This document shows positions 9,722 to 10,651 of a stretch of DNA of 17,600 bases, piece after piece. Where the stretch lies: the NCBI GenBank assembly GCA_019420045.1, contig JAHZHY010000026.1:1-17600 (forward strand), written 5' to 3'. The stretch's first letter is position 1. Each line of letters begins with the position of its first letter. This DNA comes from Clostridiales bacterium (lineage in GTDB: Bacteria; Bacillota; Clostridia; Oscillospirales; Butyricicoccaceae). A program made the position numbers and the translations under genes. Below the pieces are notes generated by a model. It was not told the DNA's origin, did not search any database, and saw only the letters and a list, made by a program, of their open reading frames with translations.

Positions 9722-10651
9722 TTAAAATTTGTTGATGTCGGAAAGATCGTCCAGCCGTTCGGGCTTGGCCACAACGCCCACCAGCATATAGCCCCGGCGC
9801 ACCGGATCATAGATGAAGTCGGGAGCCATGGCAAACAGCTGAATGTCGCCGGTGTTGCGCAGGTGGATGCGGGGGCCGGTACAGTAAATGCGGGCATCCC
9901 CGATGCGGATATGGTGTTCATCCAGATAGCACACATCCAGCTTGGCGTCAATGAATTCTTTGGCCCGTTTCTGCACTTCTTCCACAGAGAAGGAGGGCTT
10001 TTCCTCAAATTCCAGCAGGAAGCCCCGCTTCACATCCCCGTGAACCAGACTGCTTGTGGGGATGCCGTAGTCGATGTCCAGAATGTGGCACACCAGATCT
10101 TCGGCGGTGTGAACCATCCGCCGGTAGTGAATGGAGCGCAGTACCTTTTGGGCGATGTCGGTGGGCTTGGGACCGAAAATATTGGGCCGGGCCACGATGA
10201 CCTCTTCACCGATGCCCACCAAAAGCTCTGCATTGCGGCCCAGGGCGGGATAGAGCAGATCGAAATGCTCAATGACCACCCGCCGTCCGGCGTCGATGGC
10301 CGCCCGCACGGCTTCGGCCAGGCGGTAGGGTTGGGTGAAAGCCGATTCAAAGCGCACATCCATGTGATAGGTGTGATCCCGAAAGCGGCCGGATTCGAAA
10401 TGGTCCATCAGAGGCAGAGGACGGGTGTACACATCCTCATCGTCGTTGGTCAGCTGAAGACCGGGGAACATGCCCCGCACAATGAGGGATTTGCCGCTGC
10501 CTGCCTCTCCCAGAATGCCCACACAGTGGTCCTCCGGGGAAAGATACTGGCTGGTGATGGCATTGCCCAGCTCCATCAAACGCCTTTGCCCCCGGGGGGC
10601 ATAATATTCGGTATACATAAAAGGATCGCTGGCAAATTTCAATGGCGTCAT
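9722..10651 (-). CDS. P-loop NTPase with C-terminal tRNA-synthetase SAD-like domain, unknown function
   Basis: First gene of the glutamate mutase operon, 309 residues. The N-terminal half has a Walker A motif GEAGSGKS (48-55) and a hydrophobic Walker B-like strand RRVVIEHFD (123-131), like a small-molecule or nucleoside kinase. The C-terminal half resembles the second additional domain of alanyl-tRNA synthetase and AlaX editing proteins. HTAED (181-185) sits where those have HTATH, and CTGPRIHLRNTGDIQLF (257-273) sits where they have CGGTHV-x-x-TGEIG. One zinc histidine of the first pair is therefore replaced by aspartate, while C257 and H263 remain with two extra residues between them. The function is unknown; the position suggests a role in mutase maturation, cofactor handling or amino-acid sensing (inference). 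AAAGGAG abuts the ATG at 10651 with no spacing. A TTG three codons later (10640-10642) has better spacing and may be the real start. Confidence 0.8.
   Translation of the reverse strand: MTPLKFASDPFMYTEYYAPRGQRRLMELGNAITSQYLSPEDHCVGILGEAGSGKSLIVRGMFPGLQLTNDDEDVYTRPLPLMDHFESGRFRDHTYHMDVRFESAFTQPYRLAEAVRAAIDAGRRVVIEHFDLLYPALGRNAELLVGIGEEVIVARPNIFGPKPTDIAQKVLRSIHYRRMVHTAEDLVCHILDIDYGIPTSSLVHGDVKRGFLLEFEEKPSFSVEEVQKRAKEFIDAKLDVCYLDEHHIRIGDARIYCTGPRIHLRNTGDIQLFAMAPDFIYDPVRRGYMLVGVVAKPERLDDLSDINKF

Follow-up and report, generated by a model that had tools for sequence, protein, structure and literature searches.

The window that we analysed, a stretch of 17,600 bases, holds a glutamate mutase operon in the order TSAD-glmS-glmL-glmE-mal, and raises the question of what the first of these genes contributes. 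Glutamate mutase is a textbook B12 enzyme, and its operon has been taken to hold S, E and L together with downstream catabolic genes. The last four genes of the window operon are named through NCBIfam models above cut-off; for the first (product P0002) no Pfam or NCBIfam model exceeds its cut-off. Published glutamate-fermentation clusters place GntR, glmS, mutL, glmE, mal, mesAB, murI, hgdBC and a DUF1446 gene around the same operon, and in the section text and legends of that report no TsaE/SAD protein is named (PMC4682846). No description of the family was found in the literature that we searched; we have coined the name TSAD (TsaE plus SAD) for it here.

The 309-residue open reading frame was confirmed on the minus strand (10651..9722), the earlier note on this DNA having given no strand. 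At the ATG at 10651 the sequence AGGAG is immediately adjacent, and the TTG at 10642 (codon 4) is better spaced; the product of the latter begins MKFASDPF, in agreement with homologues P0012 (306 residues) and P0013 (308 residues, MKFASDPF start). TTG 10642 is thus the likely translation start. The 17-bp gap to glmS that had been reported is right if glmS starts at 9704, where GAGGTG precedes the ATG. With 3566 homologues at E≤1e-3, and all 22 key residues checked common to 114 of 137 distinct TSAD sequences, the reading frame is not a product of chance. The closest named relative among the best 80 of 549 candidates, from Intestinimonas butyriciproducens An565 (L001), is 92% identical.

By gene order TSAD is, as had been proposed, the promoter-proximal gene of the operon. 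A promoter-like site and a terminator-like hairpin ahead of it are compatible with this position as consensus matches only, the 1751 bases scanned holding three promoter-like sites against 1.3 expected and three terminator-like sites against 2.1. The flanking genes suggest an amino-acid catabolism neighbourhood. Control of TSAD by a T-box or riboswitch was considered and rejected: the window has no Rfam match over threshold, and the T-boxes at L131 and L081 share the strand of TSAD and come after it. Coordinates are collected in the table.

Table. Features of the window, with TSAD residue numbers counted from the ATG
Feature	Positions	Strand	Basis or remark
TSAD gene (P0002)	9722..10651	-	309 aa from ATG; likely 306 aa from TTG 10642
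TsaE-like P-loop domain, residues ~10-161	10169..10624	-	structure and profile matches
Walker A GEAGSGKS, residues 48-55	10487..10510	-	sequence
SAD (AlaX/AlaRS/ThrRS editing-like) domain, residues ~172-297	9761..10138	-	structure matches
Putative metal site, half 1: HTAED 181-185 (H181, D185)	10097..10111	-	aligned to HxxxH of SAD proteins
Putative metal site, half 2: CTGPRIH 257-263 (C257, H263), with R261	9863..9883	-	aligned to CxxxH, 2-residue insertion
glmS, methylaspartate mutase S	9300..9716, likely start 9704	-	NF002612 and TIGR01501 above cut-off
glmL, mutase accessory protein GlmL	7898..9283	-	NF040745 above cut-off
glmE, methylaspartate mutase E (PF06368)	6425..7882	-	TIGR01503 above cut-off
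GlmE C-terminal segment, residues 431-485, proposed TSAD-related surface	6428..6592	-	conservation contrast
mal, methylaspartate ammonia-lyase	5109..6359	-	TIGR01502 above cut-off
Promoter-like site ahead of TSAD	10687..10715	-	9/12 consensus match; no proof of function
Terminator-like hairpin, asparaginase gene/TSAD interval	10782..10803	-	consensus match; no proof of function
IclR-type regulator	12040-13032	-	glm operon flank
Type I asparaginase	10982-11971	-	glm operon flank, upstream of TSAD
Agmatinase-family gene	2975-3967	-	glm operon flank
Gate-domain membrane protein	1484-2932	-	glm operon flank

The protein had been described as a P-loop NTPase with a clear Walker A motif, joined to a C-terminal half resembling the second additional domain (SAD) of AlaRS and AlaX. 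The motif is present where it was placed, and the predicted structure, a confident model, consists of a TsaE-like domain plus a SAD fold, with no actin-like fold. Profile searches, which the note had advised for the two halves separately, gave less for P0002 itself: PF02367 scored 16.8 bits against a Pfam gathering cut-off of 26.6, and PF07973 gave no match at E≤1. Both folds are borne out by structure. Across the family PF02367 was matched by 81 of 82 members (best E 4.9e-4) and PF07973 by 65 of 82 (best E 1.5e-4). Comparison with AlaX and uridine kinases, likewise advised, came out in favour of an AlaX-type SAD and against the kinases: uridine and cytidylate kinases are sub-significant P-loop matches (best E 0.54), while TsaE matches by fold and profile, and a kinase N-terminal domain was rejected. 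A MeaB-type G-protein chaperone was set aside as absent among the 50 structure matches listed, on that absence only.

The altered zinc set in the earlier description, HTAED and C-x5-H, is as stated, and the quartet that it forms is near-invariant: H181 is kept in 135 of 136 TSADs, D185 in 131 of 136, C257 in 134 of 134 and H263 in 133 of 134, as is R261 in 132 of 134. TSAD is a conserved protein with an unusual domain combination.

Three known systems invite comparison. TsaE (PF02367; YdiB, YjeE, HI0065) is the ATPase of bacterial t6A37 synthesis, and TSAD shares its fold and Walker A motif. It differs in scoring under the Pfam cut-off, in its fused SAD and in having E128-H129 in place of the EW motif, which is present at all 12 TsaE loci compared, the selection script itself having required it. 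A separate TsaE over cut-off is encoded in 14 of the 15 TSAD genomes tested, which makes it unlikely that TSAD stands in for the genome's t6A TsaE with TsaB/TsaD. With the AlaX/AlaRS/ThrRS editing domain of PF07973, which acts on aminoacyl-tRNA, TSAD has in common the SAD fold and the quartet positions. Against a comparison set of six such proteins (5 of 11 SAD loci retrieved were left out as misfits to the motif script), it has HxxxD for HxxxH, C-x5-H for C-x3-H and an extra near-invariant R261; it also carries a P-loop domain in front and is linked to glutamate mutase. GlmL is actin-like in fold, and B12-enzyme reactivating factors of the GlmL/DdrA type are actin-like ATPases. Like GlmL/MutL and the other actin-like factors, TSAD is an operon partner that presumably uses ATP and presumably serves a B12 mutase, but its fold is different and GlmL is absent from several TSAD genomes.

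Database entries assign TSADs such names as ‘alanine-tRNA synthetase second additional domain-containing protein’, ‘lantibiotic ABC transporter’ and ‘TsaE’, which tell little of function. Among examples inspected by eye, TSADs from loci lacking rph often end (residues ~301-309) in a short [LI]-N-[KRH] that is absent from rph-linked examples. The C-terminal tail pattern matched 12 of the 60 TSADs whose loci lack rph and none of the 75 whose loci have it; the pattern is clade-specific, and we rejected the tail as a docking peptide.

Does TSAD belong with glutamate mutase? Of 920 genomes sampled (348 + 286 + 286), the 348 were drawn evenly from the phylum of the L001 genome. Strong GlmE (PF06368) was found in 80 of these, TSAD in 67 and both in 66; GlmE thus accompanies 66 of 67 TSADs against 80 of 348 genomes overall (Fisher P 7e-56, the genomes not being independent). 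The count of 80 takes in orphan and eroded forms and leaves out 27 of 107 genomes whose best PF06368 score was at most 35 bits, nine of them above the 26.6-bit cut-off; TSAD exceeded 100 bits in none of the 27. From the TSAD count four of 71 genomes were left out: G066, G256 and G371, at 19–22 bits, and G055 (L092), where TSAD is a remnant near rph in two stop-bearing fragments (55 and 49 bits) and no GlmE match was found. Only one of the 268 genomes without strong GlmE has TSAD (G305); there the gene follows a DUF4387 fragment on a contig of 3.5 kb.

TSAD and GlmE share a contig in 62 of the 66 genomes (in the other four the contigs differ), and in all 62 they share a strand, usually as members of one gene cluster. 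The spacing between matched stretches ranges from about 50 bp to 31.7 kb. TSAD lies downstream of GlmE in 60 of the 62 and upstream in two, one of which is the window's relative. Neither objection that the earlier note had raised against its own proposal applies, because the SAD fold was found and the homologues, by this co-occurrence and shared strand, do not lie mostly away from glm; its suggestion that TSAD is an undescribed component of the mutase system gains support accordingly. Among loci from named genomes (the best 80 of 549 candidates), PF06368 was present in the same genome in 78, the two misses (L031, L052) being metagenome assemblies of 2.2 and 3.2 Mb.

The link extends beyond this phylum. 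Of 286 genomes from the phylum of L080 (Leptolinea), two carry TSAD, in both cases ∼3 kb downstream of a canonical GlmE; three lower-scoring GlmE genomes there are without TSAD. Among 286 genomes from the phylum of L076 (titled Actinomycetota), the seed genome alone has TSAD, three further matches scoring 19.6–20.8 bits. PF06368 exceeds its cut-off in 6 of those 286 genomes, and in three a canonical GlmE adjoins glmL and mal with TSAD absent.

Within the main phylum, 14 of the 80 GlmE genomes lack TSAD, which indicates that TSAD is not obligate for the mutase. Eight of them (G074, G127, G179, G247, G259, G273, G325, G343) carry the full set of glmS, glmL, glmE and mal together, with mal broken up in G127 and G343; in G329 the operon reaches the contig end, and the remaining five have orphan or divergent GlmE.

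Gene order was compared in 137 loci, three duplicates having been removed. The recurrent order (ARRANGEMENTS) begins murI-gntR-glmS-glmL-glmE-mal and continues, through DCCP, an HgdC-type activase and MBL and/or AtuA and DUF4387, to mesAB-TSAD-rph-rdgB-yfcE; every locus misses some members. Among profiled families, the gene adjoining TSAD upstream (<400 bp) is DUF4387 in 37 loci, MBL in 13, MesB in 12, an eroded GlmE in six, Mal in five, GlmE in one and AtuA in one, with none in 62. Directly downstream are rph in 76, GlmS in nine, MesA in eight and MBL in one, with none in 43, and the head-of-operon TSAD of the window is one of the nine followed by GlmS. The other-phylum-titled records L039, L061, L076 and L080, as well as L187, have TSAD among glm genes; no rph was seen in the stretches available for these five, that of L076 extending <300 bases past TSAD. 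The TSAD-GlmE link thus persists across several gene orders.

Which of the mutase proteins TSAD follows was revealed by genomes that have lost some of them. The earlier note had asked whether TSAD tracks glmSLE; it tracks GlmE, but neither GlmS nor GlmL. GlmS and GlmL were searched for in the whole genomes of 16 TSAD carriers chosen for low-scoring GlmE or unusual context. GlmS over cut-off was absent in 12 of the 16, and hence from at least 11 of the 67 TSAD genomes once the partial G305 is left out; GlmL over cut-off was absent in nine, or eight without G305. In eight TSAD genomes without GlmS over cut-off, TSAD lies near a GlmE-like chain that has lost active-site residues. Six of these (G071, G114, G151, G288, G312, G336) have TSAD 52–60 bp after the GlmE-like gene, and most of the residues taken as glutamate-binding or catalytic are gone from the chains (the Arg66 alignment is uncertain, and L086 is partial). 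The TSADs beside them retain the P-loop and the metal quartet. G101 and G138 have two other eroded forms, the G138 chain retaining Arg149, Lys326 and Glu330. The eroded type is rare, at 11 proteins among 7996 candidates scored. We conclude that the protein which TSAD follows is the E chain rather than GlmS or GlmL, an observation that is new here.

In G138 itself (L088, 11493-11990), TSAD is reduced to the TsaE-like domain, the SAD having been lost, near the partly eroded GlmE. Orphan GlmE-like genes in which the glutamate-binding arginines are intact were also seen, at L094, L096, L097 and L098 (and L010 and L089), in genomes where GlmS over cut-off is absent (G088, G128, G129, G162, G004, G036). 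Those of L094, L096, L097 and L098 lie between a murI-like gene and rph, three of the four also with a double-cubane protein and an HgdC-type activase.

The eroded chains have kept one part of GlmE in particular. The window GlmE aligns without gaps to residues 7-483 of 6h9e_B, and 219 positions conserved in 42 canonical GlmE sequences, all from TSAD loci, served as reference. The six eroded chains adjoining TSAD (one partial) keep 0.22–0.30 of barrel positions but 0.80–0.90 of those in residues 431-485, which contain the motif SMVIDDIYAxSKGxLVGR; the corresponding values for the eroded L087 and L088 are 0.38 and 0.54 for the barrel and 0.80 and 0.75 for the segment. Two further database relatives, whose neighbourhood is unseen, resemble the six; four of the six database relatives are near-identical to chains of loci already in the set. 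Seven divergent, GlmS-partnered GlmE without TSAD differ, with 0.40–0.64 of the barrel and only 0.15–0.50 of the segment kept; Arg100 and Glu330 are present in all seven and Arg149 in six, the GlmS-like neighbour being weak in L188 and L189. This contrast seems to reflect a constraint on residues 431-485 separate from catalysis, in groups that are small and sequences that are related, and against a reference itself drawn from TSAD loci. The segment may also be no more than structural, a fold or dimer element, because it is kept without TSAD too: four TSAD-free orphan GlmE with the glutamate-binding arginines intact keep 0.70–0.80 of it, and TSAD-free canonical GlmE mostly retain the motif. Among canonical GlmE, the ratio of C-terminal to barrel identity is 0.93 in TSAD-bearing (78) and 0.88 in TSAD-free (11) sequences, a weak difference (P 0.001, sequences not independent) in which three TSAD-free sequences reach the TSAD-bearing value.

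TSAD travels with glmE in many anaerobic bacteria and is apparently an undescribed partner of glutamate mutase. TsaE is an ATPase serving TsaB/TsaD, and the SAD pocket of AlaRS/ThrRS holds the aminoacyl-adenosine end of tRNA. By analogy with these, we tentatively favour the reading, at somewhat short of an even chance, that TSAD is a dedicated ATP-switched accessory of the GlmE/MutE chain. Its TsaE-like domain would bind and hydrolyse ATP as a switch, as TsaE does with TsaB/TsaD; TSAD would dock on GlmE, possibly at the C-terminal segment ∼431-485; the SAD pocket could hold, and perhaps hydrolyse, a small acidic amino-acid or adenosine-containing ligand; and ATP turnover would clear, gate or report the state of the E chain. 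TSAD would then be an optional maintenance or control factor rather than a catalytic subunit. It is conceivable, if doubtful, that the C-terminal part of GlmE works with TSAD as one module independent of mutase catalysis, giving GlmE a second, non-mutase role. Some lineages would have dropped GlmL, the B12 subunit and most residues of the active site, while TSAD, ATP and metal sites included, and the C-terminal segment of GlmE were retained in one operon together with RNase PH.

The main rival to the GlmE-accessory reading is trans-editing, in which TSAD would strip 3-methylaspartate (or a different by-product of glutamate mutase) from mischarged tRNA, its TsaE-like domain acting as an ATP switch, and translation would be protected during glutamate fermentation. 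Editing domains that act on tRNA have this SAD fold, and TsaE likewise belongs to tRNA biology; rph (RNase PH) directly follows TSAD in the majority of loci, and of 15 loci scanned, 8 have tRNA genes within the stretch. The quartet is near-invariant, and R261, which has no counterpart at this position in the six SAD proteins of the comparison set, might accommodate an acidic side chain. Nevertheless, the HxxxD and C-x5-H ligand set is unlike that of the editing proteins compared, TSAD is absent from several operons expected to form methylaspartate, and in the eight TSAD genomes with eroded GlmE and no GlmS over cut-off no source of methylaspartate is known; we consider this role unlikely. Amino acids are ligands of SAD domains and glutamate is a ligand of GlmE; of the six eroded-GlmE regions, five have a GntR gene ahead of GlmE-TSAD-rph and the sixth starts at a contig end. 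The SAD pocket might therefore sense an amino acid, with TSAD, GlmE and GntR setting expression or activity of the pathway. This seems rather unlikely, since no DNA-binding domain was recognised in the TSAD model, GntR is found in no more than 32 of the 137 loci (many being truncated) and the eroded chains lack most of the glutamate-binding residues.

A role as co-chaperone is improbable. TSAD would aid the actin-like ATPase GlmL in reactivating B12-damaged mutase, much as TsaE works with TsaB/TsaD; the TsaE-like domain, the presence of GlmL in 76 of 137 TSAD loci and the description of GlmL as a reactivation chaperone in a figure legend (PMC4682846) would fit, but the eight TSAD genomes (nine with the partial G305) without GlmL over cut-off, and the glmL operons from which TSAD is missing, argue against it. 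Least probable, and already disfavoured, is that TSAD is functionally part of the rph-rdgB-yfcE housekeeping block and linked to glm by shared history: the rph neighbour would be explained, but neither the near absence of TSAD from genomes without strong GlmE nor the other-phylum operons with no rph seen near TSAD. An extra gene tied to the E chain, in the main phylum and beyond it, that joins an ATPase-type domain to a metal pocket resembling that of tRNA editing opens to experiment both the maintenance or policing of such mutases in cells and a possible second job for the E chain.

Other features of these loci were recorded. An AtuA-like gene is present in 59 and DUF4387 in 58 of the 137 TSAD loci, the pair standing together after mal in many glm operons; a literature search for DUF4387 found no paper. 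L146, L147 and L150 combine glmS-glmL-glmE with DCCP, an HgdC-type activase, MBL and TSAD, and no mal was seen in the stretch; each is apparently a glutamate mutase operon without the ammonia-lyase. At L164 and L165 (G163, G366), a tandem pair of TSAD genes lies ahead of rph.
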